From a virus, in the IMG/VR virus record IMGVR_UViG_3300033996_001049, positions 1-22,277 of that record: DNA of 22,277 bases; one strand, 5' to 3'. The position numbers and the translations under genes are program-made. Below are positions 1 to 13,346 of this stretch, piece by piece. Position 1 is the first letter of the stretch. Every line of letters begins with the position of its first letter. A model generated the notes under the pieces. It did not search any database and was not told the DNA's origin. It worked only from the letters and a program-made list of their open reading frames with translations.

Positions 1-1161
1 AGACGCACCCAGCATTTTGGCAACGACGCGTACGAAGTCGCAAGTCATGCTGTCTGCGAGCGCATCGGCGTGATACCGAATGATTCGGGAGAGGGTATCG
101 GCGTGAAGGCTTGCAACGCCTGATCCCAAGCCCGTCGAGCCTGTTTCGGATGAGAGGGATTGTCCAAGGATTGCTTCTTTAATCTTGCCGCTGAACCAGT
201 TCACAAGTTCCATAAAGACTTGTGCGCGTCCTGCGTTTGGTTCCTTGATGTCAATGTCGTACACCTTCTCTGTGCCGCTCTGCGGTAGCAAAACGCTATT
301 GTCGTTGGTCAGGTTGGCAAGCACGTTTTCCATCATCGTGCGTCCTTCATCCTGACCGAGCGGGTAATAGCCGACGCGGATACCCATGGCGTACCGCTCT
401 GCATACGTGATGGCATCTTGCAGGATTTCCTGCTTCGCTAGCCACATGAACCAACAGACATCTCGCGCTCCCACTCCGCGATAGATGCTTTCGGTTGAGT
501 TCGGGTCGTTGAAGTCGGGAGCGTTAATAAACACCCGATGCAGAACGATGGCCTTTCGCTCCATCTCGTTGAAGATGTGTACGCGGCTGTCGAATCCGAT
601 GTTTTGCGAGGATGGCCCGTCCGCGCTGTACTGCGATCCGACGCGGATGGCGAGATTCCCGCGCTGATCGTAGGCGAGCGTGTCGGGGTGGAACGGATAC
701 CACTCCTTCACGGCAACCTTGGTGCTTTCATCACGTCGATAGACGATGTTGCAAGCGGAGTTTCCGTACCACACCGCTTCGTGCATCGAACGCACGAAAT
801 CTGACCGCCGTGGCATTGCATCAAAAATCTTTGAGATTTGTGCTGCTAATTCCTGCCCTGCGGCATCCTGTTCATCGGTGCAAGTGATTGCCCATTCCAG
901 CGATGCAAGCGTGACCTGTAGCGAACGTAAGACACCTTCAATATCTGCGTCCGACCGCATCATCTGCTGATACTGCGGGTTAAGGCGGTACGCGATGCTG
1001 CTGTTCCGCAACATTTTGTCTGCGGTCGTCAAGAACGAACGCTGCACCTCAACCGCCGTTGCAAGCGGTTGCGTGATGCCACGATCAACGGGTGCTTTCA
1101 GCGGCTTGCGTGGTCGTTTTGCAGGTTCAAGACCGTTGGCTAAAGGATTGCTGTTTGCCAT
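1..1161 (-). CDS. Phage portal protein, DUF935 / Mu gp29-like (3' end outside window)
   Basis: The reading frame opens at an ATG at 1161 and stays open to the window edge, giving 387 visible residues of a portal protein cut at its C-terminus. Portals form the dodecameric ring at the capsid vertex through which DNA is packaged and ejected. Family signs are an N-terminal segment 'VEGVLRSLQVTLASLEW'-like (about residues 75-90) and the strongly typical stretch 'ILGQSLSSETGSTGLGSG' near residue 345, which matches the 'LGQTLTT..G..GS' signature of DUF935 Mu-like portals. A single base separates it from the stop of the upstream gene, and an AAGGTAG sequence about 11 bases upstream is a weak ribosome binding site. 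The order terminase, then three other genes, then portal is unusual. Family assignment is by remembered motif, not by search. Confidence 0.86.
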   Translation of the reverse strand, partial: MANSNPLANGLEPAKRPRKPLKAPVDRGITQPLATAVEVQRSFLTTADKMLRNSSIAYRLNPQYQQMMRSDADIEGVLRSLQVTLASLEWAITCTDEQDAAGQELAAQISKIFDAMPRRSDFVRSMHEAVWYGNSACNIVYRRDESTKVAVKEWYPFHPDTLAYDQRGNLAIRVGSQYSADGPSSQNIGFDSRVHIFNEMERKAIVLHRVFINAPDFNDPNSTESIYRGVGARDVCWFMWLAKQEILQDAITYAERYAMGIRVGYYPLGQDEGRTMMENVLANLTNDNSVLLPQSGTEKVYDIDIKEPNAGRAQVFMELVNWFSGKIKEAILGQSLSSETGSTGLGSGVASLHADTLSRIIRYHADALADSMTCDFVRVVAKMLGAS

Positions 1162-1162
1162 T

Positions 1163-1948
1163 TTAAACAACTACCTTCTGCGCGATGACTTGCCACTGCA
1201 TTGTTTCACCCGCAACGCCTGTAACCTCAAGTTCCACGGCATTATTATTAAACGCAATGTTTGCGTTCAAAGAGGCATTCGTTTCGCCAACTACAACCTT
1301 TTCAGAATTGACAAGGGCATAGAATACGCCTTGTCCAACAAAGTAAGACCTGTAAGCCGTTGTAAAGCGATACGCACCTGTTGTTGTACCTGCGCTATTT
1401 GACCCAATTACAAGAAGTGACATACACGCCGATTGCCCACCGGAGATCGGCAAATTTGGTACTAAGGTTTCAAGATTGACAGCAACTGTACTTGCGCCGT
1501 TAGTTTGGATAGGCGTTTGCAATCTTAAATTTTGCAATGCGATGGGAAGGTAATCATATGCCCCTACGCGCTGCGCCCAAAAAATCTCTCCGTACTCTGC
1601 ATTCTCTGATGCAACAAAAAACGCTCGTTCCAACTCATTTGGGTTGATCGGACGTACTAAGCCACCTGCGTCAAAAGTGACAAGTTGCCCAGCAACAATT
1701 TGGTACGAACCCGCACACTTTAATTGCACGAATTGGCCGTTTTGAAGAACAACGGGTTCTCCTGTTTCTGCGTGAGCAGTTTTGTTAAAGCCGCGAACTG
1801 ATCCATCAGCAACTCCTACAAACGCATTTGTCTTGGCATCACCAGCATTAGTAACTTCGACCTCGAACGAACTGCTCATTCTCACACACGCAAACGGAGA
1901 AATATTTTCTGCGGCAATGAAATTAGGGGTGTTTCCTGCGGTGCTCAT
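1163..1948 (-). CDS. Putative head decoration / head-fibre protein (DUF2190-like N-terminus)
   Basis: This 261-residue protein starts at the ATG at 1948, which has a good ribosome binding site (AGGAG, 7 bases upstream). An in-frame start at 2026 would overlap the gene before it and lacks such a site. The first ~120 residues are beta-rich and small-residue-rich, with 'NAFVGVADGS', 'GEPVVLQNGQFVQLKCAGS' and 'AGQLVTFDAGGLVRPI', the pattern of DUF2190-type capsid decoration proteins. The last ~100 residues (from 'NLPISGGQSACMSLLVIGS' on) look like a separate beta-sandwich ending in 'MQWQVIAQKVVV', of the kind found at the tips of phage fibre or surface proteins. A two-part head-fibre protein is my inference. 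It sits directly before the portal gene. Virion surface role likely, exact role uncertain. Confidence 0.5.
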   Translation of the reverse strand: MSTAGNTPNFIAAENISPFACVRMSSSFEVEVTNAGDAKTNAFVGVADGSVRGFNKTAHAETGEPVVLQNGQFVQLKCAGSYQIVAGQLVTFDAGGLVRPINPNELERAFFVASENAEYGEIFWAQRVGAYDYLPIALQNLRLQTPIQTNGASTVAVNLETLVPNLPISGGQSACMSLLVIGSNSAGTTTGAYRFTTAYRSYFVGQGVFYALVNSEKVVVGETNASLNANIAFNNNAVELEVTGVAGETMQWQVIAQKVVV

Positions 1949-1980
1949 AGTTTGCTCCTGATCAACTTGTAATGTTTGAT

Positions 1981-2388
1981 CTAATGATTTTCTAGTCTCG
2001 TTCGCAAGCGTTGCAACTCTCGACACAACACGACGCTGGTCAATCCTAATTCAGTCGCGACCTGTTTGCGCGTCCATCCGCGTAGGAGCAGCGTTACGAT
2101 TTGTGTCTGCGTTTCATTTTCACACGCATCCAAAATCCAATTCGCAGACGGCCAATCCTCTGAAAAGCGCGTAGGCGGCTTTCGCCGCCTACGCTTGTCT
2201 TCGCTCGTTTCCGCTCGTAGCGCATCGACGATACGAAACTTGATTTCTCGATGCTCGTACCCGCTGCTTCGCAGTAGGCAATCCATCGCAATGTCATGCG
2301 GTTCGCAAGCGTCAATTTGACGGCGGCCCCATCTGCGGAATTGTCTCGCAGTAGTCGCAAGCAGTGATTGATACGCTTCCCAATCCAC
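1981..2388 (-). CDS. Small sigma-factor-like / HTH protein within the head genes
   Basis: A 135-residue protein starting at a GTG at 2388, six bases after the stop of the upstream gene, with no clear ribosome binding site, so translational coupling is likely. The N-terminal half (residues 12-60, 'ARQFRRWGRRQIDACEPHDIA' region followed by 'REIKFRIVDALRAE') resembles region 2 of ECF-type sigma factors. A basic linker (KRRRRK) follows. The last ~40 residues ('QIVTLLLRGWTRKQVATELGL...LQRLRTRL') form a helix-turn-helix like sigma region 4. A full ECF sigma factor is usually 160-200 residues, so this is short. It could be a true minimal sigma factor, a sigma-derived DNA-binding regulator, or another HTH protein. 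A regulator buried between packaging and head genes is unusual. Confidence 0.55.
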   Translation of the reverse strand: MDWEAYQSLLATTARQFRRWGRRQIDACEPHDIAMDCLLRSSGYEHREIKFRIVDALRAETSEDKRRRRKPPTRFSEDWPSANWILDACENETQTQIVTLLLRGWTRKQVATELGLTSVVLCRELQRLRTRLENH

Positions 2389-2394
2389 ATTGCA

Positions 2395-4248
2395 TCAACG
2401 AATGATTTTGTCGCCTACGTAGAACAACCAATGTTGCAAACTACGGATAACCTCAACTGCTTTTTCAGTGTTTCCGTTGCGTAGGTCGCTCAATGCACTA
2501 TTCAACGCATCATTCCACCGCGACGTTTCTGCGTTCCAAGCAAACTCTGACTTGCCGCTTTCGCGTGAATTCGTAGTCTTGCCTTCAGCCCAACGTGCGA
2601 ACAGGTTGACGGTGTGTTCCTTGCCAACCTTGGTTGCAAGTTCCATCAGCCGCTCGTCGTTCTGCGGGTTGCTTTCACGGGAATCCGCGCCGATGGCAAA
2701 CGCTTCCGCTTCGCCAACGCGGGAGAAGGAAGAGCGAACACGTTGGAGATTGCTCAATTCAATCGTCGCATCTGAAAGTGCGTTCGTGTCCTTCTTCACC
2801 TTTGCAACTGCCAACTTGCTTTCAATGCCTGGAATGTCTTGAATTGCGCCTTGAATTTGGCGAACTTTGTCGTAACAACTTTCCTTGAAATCATGCACTT
2901 CTTGAAGTCGTTGCGAGAGTTCTTGATCCTTGTAATTCGTCCAACCAAGTGACTGATTGAACGCGGACTTGCTGCTTGTGCTTCTTGCAAATGACCTACG
3001 GATGTTGTCTGCATTTGCTAGAACTTGTCGCGCTTTAAGGAAATCACCTTTGTTTTGGTTACGAATTGCTTGCTTCATGATGTCAATCCATCGAGGCAGA
3101 GTGCGCACCTCCATGTCATAGATTTCATGCCGCTTCTGTTCGCATTTCTTGATGAGTTCTTCGGCATCACGGATGTACTGATTTGCTTCACGCTCATACT
3201 CAGCATCCCATTGTGCGTTGAAACTGGCCTTTGACTTTTCAAAGCGGGCCTTCGCGCCTGTAAGGGAAAACTGTGAGTTGGAACTTGATTGCGAACCCAT
3301 AATGATGTCCTCAATCATTTGCATTTTCCCTTGAGTCGTATACGGAGGAGCGTTATCTACAGTTAGGTGCGTGTCACCCCTGCTTCGCATCGTGTTAAGC
3401 CAAGTTTGCACTAACTGCTGCCGCGTAGTTTTCATTAGTTGCCTGTAATCTTCACCCTTCAAGTGAAGAGGGATGGCGAATCGCTCTTTCGCGCTTGTGC
3501 GAGAAGCAGCGAATGCCGCTTCGACTTCGCGACGGTTGTATTCGGCGTTAATAATGTCGGACGCCATCGAATCCTTATCCATCTCGCTCATATTCCCGCC
3601 TACTTCAACCCGACCACGCTGCATCTTCCGCTGCCATAGCGCAAACAACTCGGACTTCGGCATCTTCTTCAAAGCCGTGTACCGAGCGCGGATCTCATTA
3701 AGTCTGTCAAACGCCGACTTACCACCGTTCTCCGCGATCCAATCTTCCGCTTCATGTTTGCTTTCAAACTCTTCAATAGAAATGTTTGATGGTCGTCGAG
3801 CGTCGTGAACTTCCCAGTATCGCCCTAGCCCACGCTCTTGAACTTCCCATATTGAGAATGGCCCATACGAAGCGACTTTATGTCGATCGAACTTATGCTT
3901 TTTTGCGTGCTTCGCATTCTGTGAGGACTTCGAAAACGCTTTCGCTTCCTTTAACTTGACTTGAATCGCTTGCATTTCTTTGTTGAGGCGATCAATAGCG
4001 CGAAGTTGCTCATTCTTTTTGTACTCATCGGTAATTCTCGGCAACGCGGCTTCCATGGCGTTTACTGCGACGCGATACCGATACAGCCTGTCACGTAATT
4101 CGGGGATTTGCTTGCGCAACTTTTCCTGTTCGAATGACGGACTTCCCTTGCGGATAGGTAATTCGTCAGGATGAGCAAACTGACTAATTACGTCGGGTGA
4201 TTTGCAAATGCTTTCCACGCGTATGCCCCTTGAAATGAGGTAATGCAA
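2395..4248 (-). CDS. Large coiled-coil protein of unknown function (phage, between terminase and portal)
   Basis: A 617-residue protein that I do not recognise. The first possible start is a TTG at 4248. A GTG at 4218 (residue 11) has a better ribosome binding site (AAGGGG, 7 bases upstream) and may be the real start. Residues ~40-110 and long later stretches (~345-400, ~420-500) are charged and predicted by eye to be helical coiled coil. Between them, residues ~125-180 form a compact aromatic module ('PFSIWEVQERGLGRYWEVHD', then 'FESKHEAEDWIAENGGK') that looks like a small alpha/beta domain of the sort found in phage polyvalent proteins. That resemblance is an impression. The gene follows the large terminase after a 26-base gap and precedes the sigma-like gene. 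Packaging, scaffold or injected-protein roles are all possible. Confidence 0.6.
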   Translation of the reverse strand: MHYLISRGIRVESICKSPDVISQFAHPDELPIRKGSPSFEQEKLRKQIPELRDRLYRYRVAVNAMEAALPRITDEYKKNEQLRAIDRLNKEMQAIQVKLKEAKAFSKSSQNAKHAKKHKFDRHKVASYGPFSIWEVQERGLGRYWEVHDARRPSNISIEEFESKHEAEDWIAENGGKSAFDRLNEIRARYTALKKMPKSELFALWQRKMQRGRVEVGGNMSEMDKDSMASDIINAEYNRREVEAAFAASRTSAKERFAIPLHLKGEDYRQLMKTTRQQLVQTWLNTMRSRGDTHLTVDNAPPYTTQGKMQMIEDIIMGSQSSSNSQFSLTGAKARFEKSKASFNAQWDAEYEREANQYIRDAEELIKKCEQKRHEIYDMEVRTLPRWIDIMKQAIRNQNKGDFLKARQVLANADNIRRSFARSTSSKSAFNQSLGWTNYKDQELSQRLQEVHDFKESCYDKVRQIQGAIQDIPGIESKLAVAKVKKDTNALSDATIELSNLQRVRSSFSRVGEAEAFAIGADSRESNPQNDERLMELATKVGKEHTVNLFARWAEGKTTNSRESGKSEFAWNAETSRWNDALNSALSDLRNGNTEKAVEVIRSLQHWLFYVGDKIIR

Positions 4249-4274
4249 TGCCTGAAATAGATTTACAAATGATA

Positions 4275-5726
4275 TCAGGCGAAAAATGGACGGCTAACGG
4301 TTTTCGCTCCAAACATCCGAGCCACGGCATCTGATTTATTAAATCGCGGGATTTGGCAATCAACGCGGCTTAAAGAACCTCGGACGGCTTCGCTGCACAG
4401 ATCGGATATAACGTCTACTGTGTCATCGTGTGCTGCGGCGGGGAATGACACCATCTCTTCGATAACGGGCTGAAATGCCGACAAAACTCGGCCATCATTG
4501 TCCATAGGGAACTTCAATTTCCCATCCTGAACAAACGGCTGTACTGCTGCGGCTCGGATGTGTTTGTCTTTAGTTCGCTCGACAGACATCATTGGGAAGT
4601 TGGTAATGGTCTGAAATTGGTCATAAATGCCTCTTTGCGGCCCATTACCCTCGGCCAATACAACCGATACCCCACGCCGTTCTAAAAGGTCTTTTGCCAT
4701 ACGTGCGAACGCAGGGAAAGTCTCGCGCACTCGTAGGCAATCGGTGATGTACAAATCCTTCTTGTTATCGACTTCCCCAACGATACATACGCTGTAATCA
4801 GGCTGCGTACCTGATTGCTGTTGTTTCCCGTATCCCCAATCGATTGCGGCGATTTTTCGTGTGACCTTTGGTAGTTCGTCTGACCTGTAGTATTGGAACC
4901 ATTCGGGTCGGAAGATAAGGAGATCGCTTGAGAGCGGTACGAGTTCGTATGCACGACCGTACGCCATAGCCCCCATCTTGCGGTATTGCTCTGACAATTC
5001 CTCATGTCGGAATACTTCTGACCACGGGCTAACTCTCAACCCGTTGTCAACGAAGCATGGCAATCGAAGTATGGTTCCCGATTCGAAATGAACCCGTCGC
5101 AACTCCGCCGTAATGTCATCGGTGTGATATGGGGTAGCGGTATTCCAAACTCGCGGTTTGAATGGCCCTCTTGACGCGATATCTCGCATCGGCATCCAGT
5201 TGCTGTAGTAAGCCTCTTTGACTTTGGCGCGTTCGGCTGGGATAAGAACCGCATTGCGGAGGTCGGAGATATCATCCGTCCATAGGATGTCAAAACGACC
5301 TCCTGCTCGTCCCATAATTCCTAATGCTTCAACTGTGGGGTCGCGGTTTCCGCGAGTTGCCAATGTCAATCGCCAGTTTGCTTTGGATGTATCGCCCTTA
5401 CGGATTTGAATGTGCGGGAAAACCGCTTTGTATCTATCCGACTCAATGATCTCTCGGATCATCCCAGCGGTTTTGGCTGATTCGGGATCGGTTGACCCAA
5501 CGATTTTGATACGCAGAGTCGGGTAATGCCCGAGCAACCAAGCGATTACGAGTGCGCCTGTGGTAGTTTTCCCATGTCCACGGGGCAGTTCGGCGTAACA
5601 ATCCTTGTTATCGATTAGGTATGAGATGAGTTGAGCGTGCATCGCCCCTATGGGTCGCCCCATAATTAGGGCGTTGAACGCCAACGGGTTCCGCCGAGCC
5701 TCGTTGATCGCTTGTTCGGGGGTCAT
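4275..5726 (-). CDS. terL: Terminase large subunit (packaging ATPase-nuclease)
   Basis: This 483-residue protein drives DNA packaging: an N-terminal ATPase powers translocation into the procapsid through the portal, and a C-terminal RNase H-like nuclease cuts the genome. Seen directly are a Walker A motif 'LPRGHGKTT' (residues 47-55), a Walker B motif 'FDILWTDD' (about 145-152), and nuclease-type acidic motifs 'AAIDWGYG' (about 300) and 'AAAHDDTVD' (about 440). Length is normal for the family. It starts at an ATG at 5726 that overlaps the stop of the upstream gene by four bases (ATGA), the usual small-to-large terminase coupling. The nuclease motifs look intact. Confidence 0.95.
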   Translation of the reverse strand: MTPEQAINEARRNPLAFNALIMGRPIGAMHAQLISYLIDNKDCYAELPRGHGKTTTGALVIAWLLGHYPTLRIKIVGSTDPESAKTAGMIREIIESDRYKAVFPHIQIRKGDTSKANWRLTLATRGNRDPTVEALGIMGRAGGRFDILWTDDISDLRNAVLIPAERAKVKEAYYSNWMPMRDIASRGPFKPRVWNTATPYHTDDITAELRRVHFESGTILRLPCFVDNGLRVSPWSEVFRHEELSEQYRKMGAMAYGRAYELVPLSSDLLIFRPEWFQYYRSDELPKVTRKIAAIDWGYGKQQQSGTQPDYSVCIVGEVDNKKDLYITDCLRVRETFPAFARMAKDLLERRGVSVVLAEGNGPQRGIYDQFQTITNFPMMSVERTKDKHIRAAAVQPFVQDGKLKFPMDNDGRVLSAFQPVIEEMVSFPAAAHDDTVDVISDLCSEAVRGSLSRVDCQIPRFNKSDAVARMFGAKTVSRPFFA

Positions 5727-6190
5727 TTGCAGGATTGTCGGATCGTCTGAACGACTGCGGACAATGCTTCGGGGGTAATTGATGCTACGGAGATGTTTTC
5801 GGTAGCCATGCCGTCATCTAGGCGTTGCACTCGATCAAGATCAACGGATGCCCCGATACCGCTTTCCTGTACTTTAAGTAAGAACTCTCTAGCGCGGGAA
5901 CGAATCCTGTCATCGGGATTCGCTAGGTCTTTGACTGCGGTCATGCAAGCCACCTTCATGGCATCGAACGGGACATCCAACGCAAGAGAAATTGCCCGTT
6001 GCAGCATGACGTACGCGCCGCGACGTCGATGCGGATCTTGAAATGACTCAATAATGGCAGAGCCGCGTGTGGCATCCTGATTTGCGCTGTCGACCTGTTC
6101 AGCGGTTTTCTTATAAGTGCGCTTATGAGTAGCAGGGGTATTTTCCGCTACCTCGTTTGCATTAAGAGAAGTGCGTTTCTTTACTGACAT
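5723..6190 (-). CDS. terS: Probable terminase small subunit
   Basis: A 155-residue basic protein placed directly before the large terminase and overlapping it by four bases. The small subunit recognises the packaging site and loads the large subunit. The first ~35 residues are basic and low in order. The central part (residues ~50-115, 'RGAYVMLQRAISLALDVPFDAMKVACMTAVKDLA' and 'RSRAREFLLKVQESG') is helical and leads to a short acidic C-terminus. I see no classical HTH signature, so the call rests mainly on position and size. The ATG at 6190 lies inside the last codons of the preceding IbrB gene (10-base overlap), so packaging genes are translationally chained to the IbrA/IbrB cassette. Confidence 0.62.
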   Translation of the reverse strand: MSVKKRTSLNANEVAENTPATHKRTYKKTAEQVDSANQDATRGSAIIESFQDPHRRRGAYVMLQRAISLALDVPFDAMKVACMTAVKDLANPDDRIRSRAREFLLKVQESGIGASVDLDRVQRLDDGMATENISVASITPEALSAVVQTIRQSCK

Positions 6191-6837
6191 GGAACACCGT
6201 GTTCTTTATGCAATTTGACTTGATGACGTGTTACCCAAGCGGCCTTGTACGATACGTCAGCAAACAACTTTGAGAACCCTGTAATGTGTTTGAGTCGGAG
6301 GAGTTCTTCGGGTTCCATCCCGAGTTCGTTGCAAATGTCGGCATCCGCCCACCCATTATGCAACATCTCAAATACAAGGTTTGACATCCCTGACACGGAG
6401 TGTTTGCCACGGGCGCGGTTGTGCCTAACGGTAGAAGCCATGCGGTCGTTCATCCCCTTGTTTAGGACAACGATTGGCAAGAGTCCCAAGTTTCGGTCTC
6501 GAATGTCTTTCCGAGTCTTACAGGTGTAATACCTGTGGAACCCGTCAACGATCTCATACATGTCGCGTTCGGCGTTGTAGACGGTAACAACTGGCTGTGT
6601 ATACCCGTCATGCAGAATGCTTGTGTAAAGCAAACTCATTTCATGTTGCGCGACTGAATTTGGGTTGTAGTCGTTGGGGGTGACTTTCTCGACCGGAACC
6701 CATCGAACTAAGTCAATAGGTTGCGATTGCAGCGGTGAAATGTTGTGAAGCGCCTCACGAACATCGCGCAAGAACTGCACCTTGTCCTCTGCTGCGTTAA
6801 AGGCTTCGGTAATCTGTTGGATGATTTGCGTGTTCAT
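6181..6837 (-). CDS. ibrB: IbrB-like ParB/sulfiredoxin-fold protein
   Basis: A 218-residue protein with a ParB/sulfiredoxin-fold domain at about residues 45-145. Visible are 'WVPVEKVTPNDYNPN', the phosphate-binding-type motif 'DGFHR' at 98-102, and 'RHNRARG' at 138-144, followed by a short helical HTH-like part ('WADADICNELGMEPEELLRLK'). The pattern and the direct partnership with an IbrA-like gene match IbrB, first named in E. coli as a regulator of immunoglobulin-binding protein genes and known as an IbrA/IbrB pair on phages and islands. The biochemical role is not established. It overlaps the ibrA stop by four bases (ATGA) and the next gene by ten. ParB-fold proteins can bind or hydrolyse nucleotides or cut DNA, and I cannot tell which applies here. 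Confidence 0.82.
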   Translation of the reverse strand: MNTQIIQQITEAFNAAEDKVQFLRDVREALHNISPLQSQPIDLVRWVPVEKVTPNDYNPNSVAQHEMSLLYTSILHDGYTQPVVTVYNAERDMYEIVDGFHRYYTCKTRKDIRDRNLGLLPIVVLNKGMNDRMASTVRHNRARGKHSVSGMSNLVFEMLHNGWADADICNELGMEPEELLRLKHITGFSKLFADVSYKAAWVTRHQVKLHKEHGVPCQ

Positions 6838-7991
6838 GGCTTTGCCTCAATGACGTATTTGCCGCTGTAAATTTCGTAGTTCGGGTCACTTTTTCTGCGG
6901 CGGTAGAGATGTCTTTGAGGTGATCGTTCCCAGTTTCCGATCTTGGTCATGTAATGATCGTTCGCAAGCACGGCAGAGATTTGCGCTTTGAACATATCGT
7001 TCTGATCGGGGTATTGGTCATACACCTCATCCATTTGCGCGAACTTGCGCTGGAACTTGTTCCTTGCTTCTTCGGTGGCAAGCAAGTTGCAAACCAAGTA
7101 ATCCCTGTACTCCTTCCATGATTCAAACATAGGAGGCAGGTTTTTGACCGTCATAAACGCATCTTCACGTAGTTGAGCAGCCATCTTTACGCCGCCAATG
7201 CGCTTGGTCAGTTTGTTCCACACTCGAGGTTCAAACTCCTGCATAAAGTAGAGAGATCGGACGGCGGTTTCGTGCGTTACGTTGCTAACGCGCATGTTTC
7301 GAATCGGAATGCCGTACTGAAACATGGTGTCGTAAAGGCTGCAATACTCCCATTTGTTCTCATGGATGGCTTTCCATACATCCGAGTAACACCAATCATA
7401 GATTGGGTAAAAGGTGTATTGCTCGTATCGCCTGTCAAGGATTTTCCCATACGAGATGTGCTTGTAGGTCTGATTTGATGTCAACCCGACGTATCGGGTC
7501 ATAGATTCATCCGCTCGCATCCCGCTCAAGTAACACATCTTGGTTTTGGGGAATGTGACCCTTGCGAACGCTGTAAACATTTCGGCAAATCGATCAGTGC
7601 CGTATATGTTTTCTTTGAGAGAGTTTGGTTCCTGCTCTCGTATCCAATCCTTTTGACGGGTTGGGTCCCAACATTTCAGCCATTGTTCTGCAGCGGATGT
7701 GGCATTAAAGATATTGAATGGGACTTGCAACCAGTATGGCTGAATTCGTGGGTCATTCATGACCTCTCGGATGTAATCAATCGCGCTGTCCCACTCGGCT
7801 TCTTGGTCAAGGAACATGACCTTAAGTGGGAGTCTTTTCCTTTCAGTAGCGATTTGAAGTGCTAGGTTAAATACAACCGTTGAATCTTTGCCGCCTGAGA
7901 TGCCAACTACCACTTCTTGAAACTCATCAAAGAGGTAATTGATGCGCTTGATTGCTGCGTCATAAACATTCGTCTTGAGGTAGATCTTCAC
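6834..7991 (-). CDS. ibrA: IbrA-like PAPS-reductase-family protein (PP-loop ATP pyrophosphatase)
   Basis: A 385-residue PAPS-reductase/adenine-nucleotide-alpha-hydrolase family protein. The PP-loop 'SGGKDST' is at residues 32-38, followed by 'KVMFLDQEAEWDSAIDYI', typical of PAPS-reductase-like folds. The middle holds 'YLSGMRADESMTRY' and 'YPIYDWCYSDVWKAI', seen in IbrA/DUF3440 proteins. Length is close to the family norm (about 400). Such enzymes activate sulfur or a substrate by adenylation. DndC, in DNA phosphorothioation, is a relative. The gene starts with a GTG at 7991 that overlaps the methyltransferase stop (GTGA), with AGGAGG 8 bases upstream. Its tight link to IbrB, a methyltransferase and another ParB protein points to one functional cassette. 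The substrate is unknown. Confidence 0.87.
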   Translation of the reverse strand: MKIYLKTNVYDAAIKRINYLFDEFQEVVVGISGGKDSTVVFNLALQIATERKRLPLKVMFLDQEAEWDSAIDYIREVMNDPRIQPYWLQVPFNIFNATSAAEQWLKCWDPTRQKDWIREQEPNSLKENIYGTDRFAEMFTAFARVTFPKTKMCYLSGMRADESMTRYVGLTSNQTYKHISYGKILDRRYEQYTFYPIYDWCYSDVWKAIHENKWEYCSLYDTMFQYGIPIRNMRVSNVTHETAVRSLYFMQEFEPRVWNKLTKRIGGVKMAAQLREDAFMTVKNLPPMFESWKEYRDYLVCNLLATEEARNKFQRKFAQMDEVYDQYPDQNDMFKAQISAVLANDHYMTKIGNWERSPQRHLYRRRKSDPNYEIYSGKYVIEAKP

Positions 7992-8803
7992 TTCCTAATC
8001 CTCCTGACGATGTAATTCCCGAATCGCTCATCGGTTTCTAGCACTTGATGGCTATATGAGTTTGGTCGTTCGGTGTTTGTGCGTAGATATGTCACGGGCG
8101 AGTAATCAGGCGCGTAGAACATCAAGGTTGCGCATCCACCTTCGTTCAGCATCCATGGGATCCGCTTGAGGTGATCTTCATGGATGTATGCAGCCACGCC
8201 AAACAATGCGACTATGCAGTCATATCCCGTTCCATAGAAATCTTCGAATGAAGTTCGAATTACTCGTTCGCTTCGTTCAGGATGTTTCCGCTTGAGTTCT
8301 TCTAGCATTGCCCCTGAAATATCAATGCCTGTATAGGACTCAGGGTTGCAGTAATCTAGTAGTAACCCTGTCCCGCATCCGACATCTAAGACACGGCCGT
8401 ACTTTGGAACTCCGCACATCTCTACCGCTTCTTTTGATTGCGACTCGCTTGCCTTGTCGTTAAACAGCGAGTCGTACACGAATGCGATATCGTCATACGG
8501 GTTTGGGTATTTCTTTTGCGCCCTGTTGATGAGTTCTGTGGCTTCAACGGTTGCGTTGTTATCCCAATGGTGCATACCGTTGATGTCTAGGTATGTGTAA
8601 GTTCGTCCAAAGAAACGGGTGGGGTACCCATTCTGTCGGACGAAACGGACGCAATCAGAGAACTTGCTGTCATCCCAATGCCTACGCAGCGTGTATTCAT
8701 GCGGGATTTTGGGCATGCTGCTTGCGAATTTGTATGGTGCGCTTGTCAGAGCCGCGCACATTTTGACGGCGTGTTCCCATTCAGATTGATTACGGACGAT
8801 CAA
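7988..8803 (-). CDS. SAM-dependent methyltransferase with N-terminal phage-associated domain
   Basis: A class I SAM-dependent methyltransferase. The best start is a TTG at 8803, with GGAGAGG about 9 bases upstream and a 14-base overlap with the ParB gene. The frame is open back to 8935, but that part lies inside the ParB gene and looks non-functional. From the TTG the protein has 271 residues. Residues ~20-85 form a small domain ('MPKIPHEYTLRRHWDD', 'GRTYTYLDINGMHHW', then 'ELINRA') that I recall as recurrent in phage proteins. The SAM-binding motif 'DVGCGTG' is at 140-146, then 'YTGIDISGAML'. No DNA-methylase catalytic motif (NPPY, DPPY or PCQ) is visible, so the target may be a small molecule, RNA, protein or an already modified base. 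Confidence 0.8.
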   Translation of the reverse strand: MIVRNQSEWEHAVKMCAALTSAPYKFASSMPKIPHEYTLRRHWDDSKFSDCVRFVRQNGYPTRFFGRTYTYLDINGMHHWDNNATVEATELINRAQKKYPNPYDDIAFVYDSLFNDKASESQSKEAVEMCGVPKYGRVLDVGCGTGLLLDYCNPESYTGIDISGAMLEELKRKHPERSERVIRTSFEDFYGTGYDCIVALFGVAAYIHEDHLKRIPWMLNEGGCATLMFYAPDYSPVTYLRTNTERPNSYSHQVLETDERFGNYIVRRIRK

Positions 8804-9362
8804 TTTTGAAGTCCTCTCCGCAATTAGGACACACGATGTCAATTTTGACGTTTGCGGAGGATGTGACATTGAATACGGAGTTTGCCCTGTCAATGTCCCG
8901 TTCCGTAATCTTGCTGTCTCCGAATTCAGGCTCAAGGATTGGTTCGTAAAAGTCCGCAGGCACGGAATTGACTACAGAATCGAGCATGGCATCAATTTCT
9001 GCGGCATCCCAGCCTGTAGCGTTTAGCCCTTCAGGACTCATTTCGTTTAAGAGTTGCTTGAGACGAGCATCATCCCAATCAGACAGTTCTGCTGTTCGGT
9101 TATCGGCAATAGCAAAAGCCGTTGCCTTTTCACCCTTGAGTTCAGTACGGACGCATTGCAGAGTTTGCCATCCCAACTTTTGAGCAGCGGCGAGCAGTCC
9201 ATTACCCGCAAGCACTACGTTGTCTTTTGAAATGACGATTGGCTTTTGCTGTCCGAACGCTTCAATACTTGCACAGATAGCGTCGATATTTCGCGCATCG
9301 TGTTTTCTTGCGTTTCGCGGATCAGAAGTCAGCAATGACACTTCAATTTCTTCGACCTTCAT
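8790..9362 (-). CDS. ParB-like nuclease-domain protein with C-terminal zinc-binding-like tail
   Basis: A 190-residue phage ParB-family protein. Residues ~1-90 hold the ParB N-terminal fold: 'DPRNARKHDARNIDAI', 'FGQQKPIVISKDNVVLAGNG' (GNG at 53-55 in place of the GxRR of plasmid ParB), 'AAAQKLGW' and 'AIADNRTAELSDWD'. The tail has a single CPNC pair (178-181) in 'VCPNCGEDFKI', which resembles half of a zinc ribbon and may bind a metal only as a dimer or not at all. In phages this fold is often fused to a DNA methylase. Here it stands alone with a separate methyltransferase gene just downstream. The ATG at 9362 has AAGGGA 7 bases upstream. Confidence 0.85.
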   Translation of the reverse strand: MKVEEIEVSLLTSDPRNARKHDARNIDAICASIEAFGQQKPIVISKDNVVLAGNGLLAAAQKLGWQTLQCVRTELKGEKATAFAIADNRTAELSDWDDARLKQLLNEMSPEGLNATGWDAAEIDAMLDSVVNSVPADFYEPILEPEFGDSKITERDIDRANSVFNVTSSANVKIDIVCPNCGEDFKIDRP

Positions 9363-9472
9363 TTGAGTCCCTTCACATGATTTTTCTTGTCAACTCAAGC
9401 ATCTTGTTTGAGTCGGATGTTTTTTACCTTGCAGGGGTTGCGCGGTATCGGCGGGTTGCGTGTTATTGCTTG

Positions 9473-9733
9473 TCAAGTCCGTGATCTTGGGACGAGAACC
9501 ATGTCGTATCCCGCAAGCCTTGCAATTTCAATGGCTGTAGCGAACTTCGGCATCCTCTTCCCTGTCACAGTCCCGTTCTCTGCAAGAAGGCATTCTGCGG
9601 TGTGCGTCGTGCAAATCTTCTCGTCCGAGATTTGACGTACAAACGCGTAACGGCTGATGTTTTCTTCTTTGAGATGGCGGTGCATGGCCGCCTTCCAATC
9701 TGCTTCAGTTCTGATTCGTATGGCTTTTGGCAT
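9473..9733 (-). CDS. Small putative DNA-binding regulator (HTH-like)
   Basis: An 86-residue protein. The C-terminal half ('TAECLLAENGT...PKFATAIEIARLAGYDMVLVPR') resembles the Xre-type pattern in which a helix-turn-helix ends in 'AIARALGYDLVL', so it may bind DNA. The N-terminal part is basic ('RIRTEADWKAAMHRHLKEENIS'). The ATG at 9733 sits only six bases after a -10-like TACCCT (9745-9740) paired with a perfect TTGACA 17 bases further up, so the message would be leaderless or nearly so. The GGCGTAGGG sequence over the -10 is a half copy of the shared operator motif, so this protein could be the regulator acting there. That link is inference. It is the first gene of the left leftward block. 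Confidence 0.6.
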   Translation of the reverse strand: MPKAIRIRTEADWKAAMHRHLKEENISRYAFVRQISDEKICTTHTAECLLAENGTVTGKRMPKFATAIEIARLAGYDMVLVPRSRT

Positions 9734-9739
9734 TGGCGT

Positions 9740-9768
9740 AGGGTATCTCGGCGTTCTTGCCGTGTCAA
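9740..9768 (-). promoter_or_regulatory. Candidate leftward promoter at the head of the ParB/IbrAB/terminase block
   Basis: On the minus strand a perfect TTGACA (9768-9763) is followed by a 17-base spacer and TACCCT (9745-9740). The -10 is weak (three of six matches). The CCCTACGC overlapping it is half of the operator-like motif seen in the rightward promoters. Transcription would begin at about the A of the ATG at 9733. Confidence 0.45.
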
Positions 9769-9774
9769 GGGTTT

Positions 9775-10195
9775 AGCCGCTTGGTGAGATGCAGGAACAC
9801 CATGACCCCAGTTTTTGAGGTCATGGAAGTGGAAAATAAACTTCCATCTTTGGGAAGTCAGCCGCTTGGAGCCGACGCGAGGTTTCCCATAGGCGCGTCT
9901 TTCACCATTTTGACGGGCAGTCCGCTACCGACGCGCAGGAGCGAGCGGAGGTTTTACTGTCCGCTGCACGGGGTAGGGTCAATCCCCGTGGCTAGGCATT
10001 ATGTTGTAATGCGCCCTAAACTAGAAACGGAGCATCTAGGAATGCTGCAGCGGTTGCCGGCTGACGGCTTGATTTACCCCTAAGCGTGGTATGCTGCTCA
10101 CGCAATGTTGTAATGGCGGTTTCCCCTGGCAGAGTTGCCGCCCCTAACAGAGTACCGCCCCGTCCGCCCAAGGCAAGACGAGGCGGTTCTTTTTG
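9775..10195 (+). ncRNA. Candidate large structured non-coding RNA (about 400 nt)
   Basis: This stretch has no convincing gene but is dense in inverted repeats, counted by hand. CCATGACC (9800-9807) pairs with GGTCATGG (9819-9826). TGGAAGT (9824-9830) pairs with ACTTCCA (9840-9846), or alternatively CTTCC (9841-9845) with GGAAG (9853-9857). A long-range helix GTCAGCCG (9857-9864) / CGGCTGAC (10058-10065) encloses five hairpins: GACGCG 9874/CGCGTC 9894; GGGCAGT plus CCGCT 9915-9926 with AGCGG 9944 and ACTGTCC 9956; CACGGGG 9967/CCCCGTG 9984; GCATTA 9996/TAATGC 10007; CTAGA 10021/TCTAG 10035. Then come GCGTG 10084/CACGC 10099, GGCGG 10115/CCGCC 10138 and a terminator ending near 10194 that sets plus-strand orientation. 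AGCCGCTTGG occurs twice (9775, 9860). The 5' end and promoter are not clear. I do not recognise a known family; the tmRNA and RNase P signatures I know are absent. Confidence 0.6.
10154..10194 (+). terminator. Intrinsic terminator (plus strand) at the 3' end of the candidate RNA
   Basis: ACCGCCCCGTC (10154-10164) pairs with GACGAGGCGGT (10177-10187) over eleven positions with one mismatch, followed by TTCTTTTT. There is no T-run after the hairpin on the minus strand, so it acts on rightward transcription only. No gene on the plus strand lies upstream of it, which implies a non-coding transcript. Confidence 0.75.
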
Positions 10196-10198
10196 AAA

Positions 10199-10327
10199 TC
10201 AAAGGTTGCGCTTTTCGCGTCGTTCCATAATGCGTTGAATTTTGTTCAATCGGTATTCGACCATAACCATCCCTACAAAGATGGCGAACGCCCATACGAA
10301 CATCAAGCACCCCAAAATCTCTGTCAT
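10199..10327 (-). CDS. Small membrane protein (42 aa)
   Basis: A 42-residue protein starting at an ATG at 10327 with an excellent ribosome binding site (AGGAGG, 6 bases upstream). Residues ~4-24 ('ILGCLMFVWAFAIFVGMVMV') form one transmembrane helix, followed by a basic amphipathic tail ('RLNKIQRIMERREKRN'), so the C-terminus is likely cytoplasmic. It overlaps the stop of the preceding 57-residue gene (ATGA). It is the last gene of the small leftward operon. The function is unknown. A lysis, superinfection-exclusion or host-membrane role is possible. Confidence 0.7.
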   Translation of the reverse strand: MTEILGCLMFVWAFAIFVGMVMVEYRLNKIQRIMERREKRNL

Positions 10328-10497
10328 GGTTTCCTCCTGTAGATTTCTAGTTCATCGCGGAGTCGAATGACCTCTGCGTTTGTGTGTTTGATTTGCTCGC
10401 GCAACCTTGCGATTTCCGCATTGAGTTTGGTTACTTGCACGTCGCGTGAGATACTGGCGTTCCACGGGTGCGACTGCTTTGGCTTTACAACGGTCAC
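10324..10497 (-). CDS. Small coiled-coil protein (57 aa)
   Basis: A 57-residue protein starting at a GTG at 10497 that overlaps the preceding stop (GTGA) and has AAGGAG 5 bases upstream. After a short polar head ('KPKQSHPW'), residues ~20-55 form a clear heptad coiled coil ('VTKLNAEIARLREQIKHTNA', 'EVIRLRDELEIYRR'). It may oligomerise with the two coiled-coil proteins encoded just upstream. The function is unknown. The overlaps on both sides and the strong ribosome binding site support it as a real gene. Confidence 0.7.
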   Translation of the reverse strand: MTVVKPKQSHPWNASISRDVQVTKLNAEIARLREQIKHTNAEVIRLRDELEIYRRKP

Positions 10498-10838
10498 TTG
10501 ATCTCCTTGAAGCAGTCCCAGTTAAGGTATTTGGCATAGTCTTCTGCACTGATCACGCCGTGTGCCATGTGCCTGCAACATTCACGCCGCGCCTCGTCGC
10601 GCTCGACCGTAAGCGTTTTGACGCGCTCTTGCAGTTCGGTAATCGTTTTGCGGAACTCATCAGTGTTTTTTTCAAGTTCGTCGCGGTGCGACTCCGCCAT
10701 AATGTTCCCGTCTTGCCACATCTCTAATTGAGTGCGGAGCCGTTCAATCTCGGCAGCGGCTTCTGCGCGTTCCGCGTTCTGCTTGTCGGTCAACGATGTC
10801 CAACTAATGCGTAGGCGATCTACGATGTCAATATTCAT
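10494..10838 (-). CDS. Coiled-coil phage protein with C-terminal 'WDC' motif (paralogue 1)
   Basis: A 114-residue protein of unknown function. Residues ~20-85 are a long coiled coil ('AERAEAAAEIERLRTQLEMW', 'ELEKNTDEFRKTITELQERV'). It ends in 'RRECCRHMAHGVISAEDYAK' followed by 'YLNWDCF'. This C-terminal pattern (AED-x-AK, then WDC) is shared with the gene immediately upstream at 10835-11155, so the two look like products of a tandem duplication. The ATG overlaps the upstream stop by four bases. Confidence 0.72.
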   Translation of the reverse strand: MNIDIVDRLRISWTSLTDKQNAERAEAAAEIERLRTQLEMWQDGNIMAESHRDELEKNTDEFRKTITELQERVKTLTVERDEARRECCRHMAHGVISAEDYAKYLNWDCFKEIK

Positions 10839-11155
10839 TGCTGCGCCTCATAGCAGTCCCAAAGGTTTGATTTGGCGATATCTTCTGCTCGCCTTCCTTC
10901 ATGCCGCATCATCGCCTCGCAAAACAGTTTGCGTGCTCTGTCCCTGTCGGAACGCAGCCGTTCGTTCCACGATCGTAACTGATCCATACCCTGAACTTCC
11001 ATCTGCATGTTTCGAAAGTCACGACGAATCTTTTGCAGTTCATCAATACACACGTTGTAGAGATCTTGCGGGTCGCTTTCCTTTGCATCAATATCTGCAG
11101 CCTGCAATTCTGTTATGAAGTCGATGATTTTCGCGAAACGTTCCGTGGTCGTCAT
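10835..11155 (-). CDS. Coiled-coil phage protein with C-terminal 'WDC' motif (paralogue 2)
   Basis: A 106-residue protein, first gene of the small leftward operon. Residues ~25-85 are helical and charged. The end, 'KLFCEAMMRHEGRRAEDIAK' then 'SNLWDCYEA', parallels the end of the downstream paralogue. The ATG at 11155 has a perfect AGGAGG 5 bases upstream and lies about 35 bases after a strong promoter (TTGCAA, 17 bases, TATATT). The shared C-terminal motif, with a cysteine at a fixed place after an invariant tryptophan, may be a binding surface. The function is unknown. Confidence 0.75.
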   Translation of the reverse strand: MTTTERFAKIIDFITELQAADIDAKESDPQDLYNVCIDELQKIRRDFRNMQMEVQGMDQLRSWNERLRSDRDRARKLFCEAMMRHEGRRAEDIAKSNLWDCYEAQQ

Positions 11156-11226: not shown

Positions 11227-11255
11227 CTCGCCCCTGTTGAAAGATAGGGTAAAAT
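11227..11255 (+). promoter_or_regulatory. Rightward promoter with operator-like spacer, close to a start codon
   Basis: The -10 TAAAAT (11250-11255) is preceded by the conserved 17-base block CCTGTTGAAAGATAGGG (11233-11249). The -35 position reads CTCGCC, a poor match, so this promoter may need an activator. It is back to back with the leftward promoter at 11219-11191, giving a divergent control region. The ATG at 11261 is five bases after the -10. Confidence 0.6.
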
Positions 11256-11701: not shown

Positions 11702-12589
11702 ATGACCACGCCAACCACCCACTCGCAACTGCAATACGGAATTGAGATCGAATGTGGTATCAACTTCAACGTTGATATCATGGTCGGTCAACGCCGACAC
11801 GGAATTGAGCAACGACAACTTCCAGATTTCCAAGGGAAATTTTGGAAGGCCGAGCAAGATGGCTCGCTTCAATTTCGCGGTAGCCGTGGAGTCGAGTTTG
11901 TCTCTCCGAAGTTGCGCGGAAAAGAAGGTCTTGACAACATCACCGAAACTTGCAAGCGCATTAAGGCGATGGGTGGCAGGACAAACGACACCTGTGGACT
12001 TCATATCCATGTCGAGTTCCCAACGGATTCGATTGATGCGATGCGGCGCTTGACCAAATTGGTCGCCCGATTCGAAGTGGGAATCTTTGCAAGCACGGGT
12101 ACTCCACAACGTGCGCGTAACGGATTCTGCAAGCCCATCAAAGACCTAATGAAAACGCTGAATTGGGCTAGCGCGAGCCATAAGGAACATGTTTCATGGC
12201 ACCGCGGGTTCCGTGACCGATATCAAATGCTCAACTGGACGAACCTGATTGACGGCCGATTTAATGCTGTTGAGTTCCGAGCGTTTAGCGGAACCGTCAA
12301 CCCAAAGAAAATCGCAGCGTGGATCCGCATCTGTCTTACGCTTGTGCAGATGGCCCTTGACGGCGTTGAACCTGATTGGGACATCAACCCAACTACCCTT
12401 CAAAACACCACAGGAACGCTCGGAGAGTCCAATCTCCGATGCCTTTTCTTCTACTGTTGGAAGGGACAGCGCAGCAAGAAGCAGTATGGGGAACTTCACC
12501 ACGAAACTTACACGCTCGCGCAGGACATGAAAACCCTGCGGAACCTTGCTATCCGACATGACATCCGCGCAGGACTGCGCACTCAATAA
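11702..12589 (+). CDS. Amidoligase-family enzyme (glutamine-synthetase-like fold)
   Basis: A 295-residue protein of the Amidoligase_2 type. These enzymes use ATP to join a carboxylate to an amine, making amide bonds on peptides, proteins or small metabolites. Visible family motifs are 'YGIEIE' (12-17), 'DGSL' (53-56), 'GVEFVSP' (63-69), 'CGLHIHV' (98-104, probable metal ligands), a conserved 'RYQMLNW' (173-179) and 'EFRAFSGT' (191-198). Length is typical. The next gene is a class II glutamine amidotransferase, a pairing known for amidoligase operons (described by the Aravind group), in which the amidotransferase could supply ammonia or remove or exchange a glutamine amide. It is the first gene of its operon, with AAGGAAGGAA before the ATG. 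The substrate is unknown. Confidence 0.85.
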   Translation: MTTPTTHSQLQYGIEIECGINFNVDIMVGQRRHGIEQRQLPDFQGKFWKAEQDGSLQFRGSRGVEFVSPKLRGKEGLDNITETCKRIKAMGGRTNDTCGLHIHVEFPTDSIDAMRRLTKLVARFEVGIFASTGTPQRARNGFCKPIKDLMKTLNWASASHKEHVSWHRGFRDRYQMLNWTNLIDGRFNAVEFRAFSGTVNPKKIAAWIRICLTLVQMALDGVEPDWDINPTTLQNTTGTLGESNLRCLFFYCWKGQRSKKQYGELHHETYTLAQDMKTLRNLAIRHDIRAGLRTQ

Positions 12590-12608
12590 ACAATCAAGGA
12601 GATTGCAT

Positions 12609-13346
12609 ATGTGTGGCATTTTCGGACACTTTTCGTTGGAACCACTTCGTCGTAAGCACCTTGTTACGTTGCGAGAAGCGGCGCGTAGTCAGGTGATGCG
12701 CGGTCAAGACGCGTTTGGTATCGCTTGGTGTAGTGCTAGCGGTATTGATTCACACAAGCAACAGGGGTCAATCGCAGATCATTTGCAACACATGAAATTG
12801 GGGATAGGTAGCGTTGCAATGATCGGCCATACCCGCATGGCTACGCATGGCTGCCCATCAGAAAACATGAACAACCATCCGCATCGGTTTGCGATGCAGA
12901 ACAGCCCAGCGTACTTGGTGCATAACGGAGTCATTAGTAACTATGCGGAAATCTGTAGGCTTCGCGGATTGACAATGACTACAGAATGCGACAGCGAAGT
13001 TCTTGCCCGTCACATGGAGGACGGCAGGGGTGGAATCCTTAACAGGGTGAAAGCCGCTGTGCGAGACATTGACCCGTACGCGCCATTTGCCGCAGCAATC
13101 CTCACGCCTAATTACATCATTCTTGCGCGACGTGGAAATCCGCTTTACTGGTCAGAAACCCAATCGCAGCGATGGTTCGCAAGCACCCATCACGGGTTGA
13201 CCGGAAAGCATTGGTTAGTTCCTGACAACACGGCATTCAGCATTTCACTCAACAGTGGCGAGGTCGCAACTATTGAATTGGACAAGCGCATCCCATCAAC
13301 AATGCGTTTTCTCGGGAGCGACCTTTTTACGAGAGGGAACAAATAA
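12609..13346 (+). CDS. Class II glutamine amidotransferase (Ntn hydrolase)
   Basis: A 245-residue protein starting at the ATG at 12609, with AAGGAG upstream. The frame is open to 12546, but only this start puts Cys at position 2, the N-terminal nucleophile exposed after Met removal. It begins 'MCGIFGHFS'. Other motifs are 'GHTRMATHG' (73-81), 'NNHPHRF' (88-94), 'VHNGVISNYAEI' (104-115) and 'CDSEVLARHME' (127-137), all standard for class II amidotransferases such as PurF and AsnB. No synthetase or phosphoribosyl domain follows, so it is a stand-alone glutaminase unit. Released ammonia would go to a partner, most likely the adjacent amidoligase. All visible catalytic motifs are intact. Confidence 0.93.
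   Translation: MCGIFGHFSLEPLRRKHLVTLREAARSQVMRGQDAFGIAWCSASGIDSHKQQGSIADHLQHMKLGIGSVAMIGHTRMATHGCPSENMNNHPHRFAMQNSPAYLVHNGVISNYAEICRLRGLTMTTECDSEVLARHMEDGRGGILNRVKAAVRDIDPYAPFAAAILTPNYIILARRGNPLYWSETQSQRWFASTHHGLTGKHWLVPDNTAFSISLNSGEVATIELDKRIPSTMRFLGSDLFTRGNK

Follow-up and report, generated by a model that had tools for sequence, protein, structure and literature searches.

What occupies the gene-free gap at the border between the packaging and recombination modules of this virus? The window analysed here, meaning the whole stretch, is a virus record of 22,277 bases (IMG/VR IMGVR_UViG_3300033996_001049). Its genes from 1 to 11155 lie mostly on the minus strand and include terL, two ParB-like genes and a PAPS-reductase-like gene, among others, and from 11237 onwards the plus strand carries genes for an amidoligase, a glutamine amidotransferase, RusA, ERF and a Gp157/Gam-like protein. 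The gap lies between a minus-strand gene of 86 amino acids (9473-9733) and a minus-strand frame of 42 codons (10199-10327). A preliminary description had proposed that it encodes an unrecognised structured RNA of ~400 nt that ends in its own terminator, with no plus-strand gene upstream. The 5' neighbour is indeed on the minus strand, and the core of that proposal is supported by the comparisons described below. The RNA gene would run on the plus strand from about 9785 to 10194 (~410 nt), replacing the earlier limits of 9775 and 10195; its 3' end is the terminator, its first helix begins at 9800 and its 5' end is estimated from relatives.

Folding energy is only mildly unusual for this DNA (z of -2.1 for the plus strand and -2.9 for the minus strand). 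Because folding energy is weak evidence, the reality of the RNA has to be decided by homologues. These were gathered through the neighbouring proteins, after BLAST and Rfam had come back empty and the folding signal had proved weak. An alignment of the PAPS reductase led to 72 loci, in one of which, L021, the gap has a DNA homologue over its full length (E = 3e-21). An alignment of the HTH-like product of the 86-codon gene led to L087 (E = 7e-21), and a gapped pattern of three invariant blocks to L089 and L090, which are near-identical to each other (E = 8e-71 and 3e-70). Full-length homologues of the RNA gene were defined by nhmmer and are also matched by a covariance model, R1. A much diverged copy was recovered with a three-sequence profile in L012/L010/L088. 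This is the near relative L008/G001 (77 % in terL), which has no copy of the RNA beside its HTH-like gene, where one would be expected; the diverged copy lies elsewhere in the same virus. The distinct relatives in IMG/VR number five, four of them clear, at 187-218 bits against the core covariance model, and one diverged (27 bits); L007 and the loci overlapping it are the window virus again (100 % identical over the compared stretch). The family as used here is thus six viruses, all uncultured: the window, L021, L087, L089, L090 and the diverged L012. Each record holds one copy, and the homologues have the same order of elements at similar spacing.

The core alignment (A7) comprises five members, from which a structure of 29 pairs was chosen by eye. 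Standard pairs make up 97.9 % of the total and 11 of the 29 show compensatory double changes. The covariation score is 0.372 against 0.167 for shuffled alignments, with none of 500 shuffles reaching the observed value. Sliding the partners by one to three columns lowers pairing to 23-49 %; since the structure was picked by eye from the same sequences, this control is biased towards it, and the double changes are the stronger point. A scan of the columns for further covarying helices recovers P2, P4, P5 and P9, its other matches being mostly rich in G-U pairs or using the U-run. Within the helices there are 12 G-U pairs against 3 A-C mismatches, which marks the plus strand as the one that folds.

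This strand bias also bears on whether the conserved unit could be a DNA element, such as an origin, an operator cluster or a recombination site. Inverted repeats at a divergent control region would suit such an element, as would the two copies of AGCCGCTTGG (at 9775 and at 9860), to which a diverged pair corresponds in relatives. However, the excess of G-U over A-C, the presence of single-stranded loops among the most conserved parts and the retention of the U-tract terminator on one strand only make an action at the DNA level very improbable. A small or decayed protein gene is less credible still. The window has a TTG-started frame of 108 amino acids (9757-10083) and L021 one of 106, but these are without protein similarity and no such frame exists in L087, L089 or L090. 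Most of the insertions and deletions that separate the members have lengths not divisible by three and break the frame, and stops occur in all frames, so that the region is not protein-coding; no reading frame is conserved.

The many hairpins noted in the preliminary description are substantiated as helices P1 to P9, which precede the terminator. P1 (9800-9826) pairs CCAUGACC (9800-9807) with GGUCAUGG (9819-9826), and its 5' strand CCAUGACCCC is invariant in the five core members. P2 (9893-9936) is a helix of 7 bp (9893-9899 with 9930-9936) around the invariant CACCAUUU; it is 100 % paired and four of its seven pairs show double changes, with the versions GCGCGUC:GACGCGC, GCAUCGC:GCGAUGC and GCAUCAC:GUGAUGC. 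P3 (9944-9965; 9944-9949 with 9960-9965) is a variable hairpin. In P4 (9967-9990; 9967-9973 with 9984-9990), which is present in L012 as well, the stem varies, again with double changes at four of seven pairs, while the loop UAGGGUCA stays the same. P5 (9996-10012) is GCAUUA/UAAUGC in the window and another fully paired stem in each of L021, L087 and L089/L090; it was not found in L012. P6 (10031-10046) has double changes at three of six pairs and is joined to P7 by the invariant single-stranded UGCAGCGGU (10046-10054), L089/L090 and L012 differing just outside this block or at its end. The stem of P7 (10056-10068, GCCG-RCWGA-CGGC) is invariant in the five members and so gives no covariation, and P8 (10084-10103, GCGUG-GUAUGCUGCU-CACGC) is invariant over 20 nt in the same five, its stem being GAGCG/CGCUC in L012. 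Because neither varies among the core members, P7 and P8 are backed there by conservation rather than by covariation. P9 (10115-10142) is rebuilt in relatives as GUCGUCGCC/GGCGGCGAC or GUGUGGUAGUYGC/GCGACUACCGCGC.

The plus-strand terminator (10154-10194; 10154-10159 with 10182-10187, then the U-run) is present in all homologues. Its stem, ACCGCC/GGCGGT in the window, differs in sequence between viruses, and all six retain the pairing and the U-run; P5 and P9 likewise differ by lineage with pairing kept. The window, L021, L087, L089 and L090 share P2, P4, P6, P7 and P8 and the invariant UAGGGUCA, UGCAGCGG and GUAUGCUGCU. L012 shares part of this, namely P4 with its loop, UGCAGCGG, the P8 stem and the terminator.

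Two other structural proposals were not upheld. A long-range helix between 9857-9864 and 10058-10065 forms all eight pairs in the window and 5, 4, 4 and 4 of eight in the relatives; the conserved local hairpin P7 shares positions with its 3' arm. A switch between mutually exclusive helices at 9824-9857 is unsupported, since both hairpins lie in an insertion of 21-30 nt (9827-9856 in the window) that is unique to the window virus and absent from L021, L087, L089 and L090. The 10-base direct repeat is real, with copies of AGCCGCTTGG at 9775-9784 and 9860-9869. L021 has a different pair, CAGCCCGTTGGAG and CAGCCCGCCGGAG, and weaker pairs occur in L087 and L089; the two copies apparently change together, and the helices found do not explain the repeat. 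In each of the five core members, the 3' arms of P5 and P9 are also able to pair with each other (GUAAU:GUUGC, GCCGC:GCGGC, GUCGC:GCGAC and AGUCG:CGACU). A swap of partners between P5 and P9 might be read from this; the version in the window, which relies on two G-U pairs, could be accidental.

Some of the invariant blocks are complementary to each other. UGACCC in the P1 strand matches GGGUCA in the P4 loop, and GCAGC in UGCAGCGGU matches GCUGC in the P8 loop. These matches are suggestive of pseudoknots or kissing loops, though shuffled blocks equal them in 228 and 244 of 2000 trials (about 11-12 %, p about 0.1). L012 has another complementarity, of seven bases, between its P8 loop and a stretch upstream (ACAUUCU/AGAAUGU), a single case that would fit a pseudoknot of that loop. 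All six virus sequences contain the complement of UGCAGCGGU, ACCGCTGCA, somewhere outside the RNA (6728-6736 in the window). As a target of UGCAGCGGU it is unconvincing: the sites do not appear homologous, five motifs were tried, and about 0.2 % of 9-mers of equal GC content occur in all six sequences.

The 86-amino-acid HTH-like gene is the divergent 5' neighbour in five of the six viruses, with relatives 31-62 % identical. Its AlphaFold model is helical (pLDDT 76.5) and matches HipB/HigA/CI-type HTH proteins in the PDB weakly, none of the matches being significant. A putative minus-strand promoter for this gene can be read at 9740-9768 (TTGACA-17-TACCCT), and a promoter scan gave TTGAC(C/G)-17-TAnnnT upstream of the HTH-like gene in L021, L087, L089 and L090. 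For the RNA itself, the upstream DNA of the window and of L021 yielded no sigma-70-like promoter. In L087, L089 and L090, promoter-like boxes (TTGAGC-17-GATAGT and CTGACG-16-TATAGT) sit just 5' of the conserved region; because they end 81 nt 5' of the core, alignment puts the RNA start near window position 9785.

The genomic position of the RNA is constant. In all six viruses, with orientation set by the RNA, it lies at the border of the packaging and recombination modules, and the recombination module (RusA, ERF, Gp157-like) is 3' of the RNA and co-oriented with it. In the window, L021, L087, L089 and L090 (in L090 as far as the contig extends) the packaging module is 5' and divergent and begins with the HTH-like gene. 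G001 has all its genes in one orientation, with the RNA preceding the recombination module. Transcription would start at a promoter within the divergent control region that separates the two modules and run for ~410 nt towards the recombination and early genes, stopping at the RNA's own intrinsic terminator. The transcript would fold into the hairpin chain P1-P9 with its invariant loops and joints, among which UAGGGUCA, CACCAUUU, UGCAGCGGU and GUAUGCUGCU are candidate contact sites for a protein, for another RNA or for the rest of the same RNA. Since compensating mutations have preserved the fold in several viruses, the RNA probably does some undescribed job in infection. Our preferred reading, to which we give a probability of roughly two in three, is that it is a stand-alone phage RNA gene, probably expressed early, whose product works in trans during infection, in a structural or a regulatory role.

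The main rival, because the RNA is upstream of and co-oriented with the early genes, is an antitermination or put-like leader. Such a leader would act in cis to control the recombination genes, the nascent RNA modifying RNA polymerase or the terminator being conditionally read through, for which HK022 put RNA and the Q-controlled leader of the lambda late operon are models. In four relatives (L021, L087, L089 and L090) co-oriented genes directly follow the terminator, an arrangement that is leader-like and counts against a stand-alone gene acting in trans. However, the window, alone among the six viruses, has minus-strand genes (10199-11155) between the terminator and the plus-strand operon, whose first gene is at 11237. 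L021 has a separate promoter-like site behind the terminator (TTGACA-18-TATGTT), and every member has the terminator. These features disfavour a simple cis leader, as does size, put RNA being much smaller than ~410 nt; we regard this explanation as unlikely, though it deserves to be kept in mind. The placement at a module border in every member could also be explained by a function in genome replication or packaging, as an RNAII-like primer or a pRNA-like part of the motor. This seems more doubtful again. The RNA is several genes from terL, points away from the packaging genes in five of the six viruses and ends in a terminator; origin-like repeats were not identified, and composition skew in the window shows no clear change at the locus.

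A stand-alone RNA gene would join a known kind of element, the large structured phage RNAs, which are few and mostly without known function. Within that kind it is a new family. As the preliminary description had suspected, none known fits: Rfam 15 (4227 families) gave no match at gathering score in the whole window and none at E<=5 over 9700-10250, and the L021 copy had no meaningful match. The RNA is neither GOLLD nor ROOL, since the Rfam models of both fail to match it and the window lacks a tRNA neighbourhood, with no tRNA gene anywhere within it. Like GOLLD it would be a large, elaborately folded, phage-carried non-coding RNA of unknown function, but it is ~410 nt long and occupies another genome position, whereas lengths above 800 nt and a location near tRNA islands are found in many GOLLD members (PMC12286853). 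ROOL is also a large multi-hairpin RNA of phages and prophages, with pseudoknots and unknown function, is often near tRNA islands and forms nanocages through conserved kissing loops (PMC12286853); the loop contacts here are, in contrast, merely suggestive. The put RNA of HK022 is the phage precedent for a structured, cis-acting antitermination leader at the head of an early transcription unit (PMC9378689), from which the present RNA differs in its own terminator and, in the window, in the convergent genes before the operon. Another structured phage RNA gene is that for phi29 pRNA, which is shorter and serves the packaging motor, and again the present RNA differs in its lack of an Rfam match and its direction away from the packaging genes. 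A bolder and tentative idea is that the family is a novel class among the large phage RNAs, separate from GOLLD and ROOL, whose invariant loops would make long-range or intermolecular contacts, so that it might act in trans early in infection as an RNA machine or as the scaffold of a ribonucleoprotein. Its fixed genomic position, clear limits, own terminator and covarying alignment provide the basis for an Rfam-type model. They also indicate that uncultured phages still hide undescribed RNA families, which protein-centred annotation shows as empty intergenic space.

Among the loci reached the family is small, at six viruses. BLAST of GenBank phages with the window, L021 and L087 copies, and of plasmids with the window copy, gave no matches; the L012 copy gave only matches of ~35 nt, which were read as chance. 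Covariance-model searches of 39 further virus records from the wider PAPS-reductase group, and of 297 and 398 (695) cellular genomes, yielded no credible member; in the cellular genomes few candidates were scored per genome, so that diverged members would be missed. The pattern scan of IMG/VR required exact blocks and would also miss diverged members. A first, strict pattern returned known copies only, and a looser three-block pattern gave L089 and L090 along with chance matches (L091 and all eight genome contigs). Covariance-model matches of 15-26 bits in L004 and L115-L118 are likewise read as chance; they align poorly, and those in L004 and L117 lie inside protein genes.

A PAPS-reductase-like gene, two ParB-like genes and a methyltransferase-like gene lie in series at 6181-9362, and relatives of the first occur in dozens of IMG/VR contigs, most without a visible copy of the RNA. 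The amidoligase (PF12224) and class II glutamine amidotransferase (PF13522) genes are adjacent at 11702-13346, are paired in L021 too, and possibly form a modification pathway. Adjoining the RNA terminator, the minus-strand frame at 10199-10327 has a good ribosome-binding site and encodes a small predicted membrane protein of 42 amino acids (MTEILGCLMFVWAFAIFVGMVMVEY...). A similar small hydrophobic frame occupies the same place in L021 (4983-5093, minus strand); relative to the RNA its orientation is reversed, so that the segment has probably been inverted or replaced in the window.
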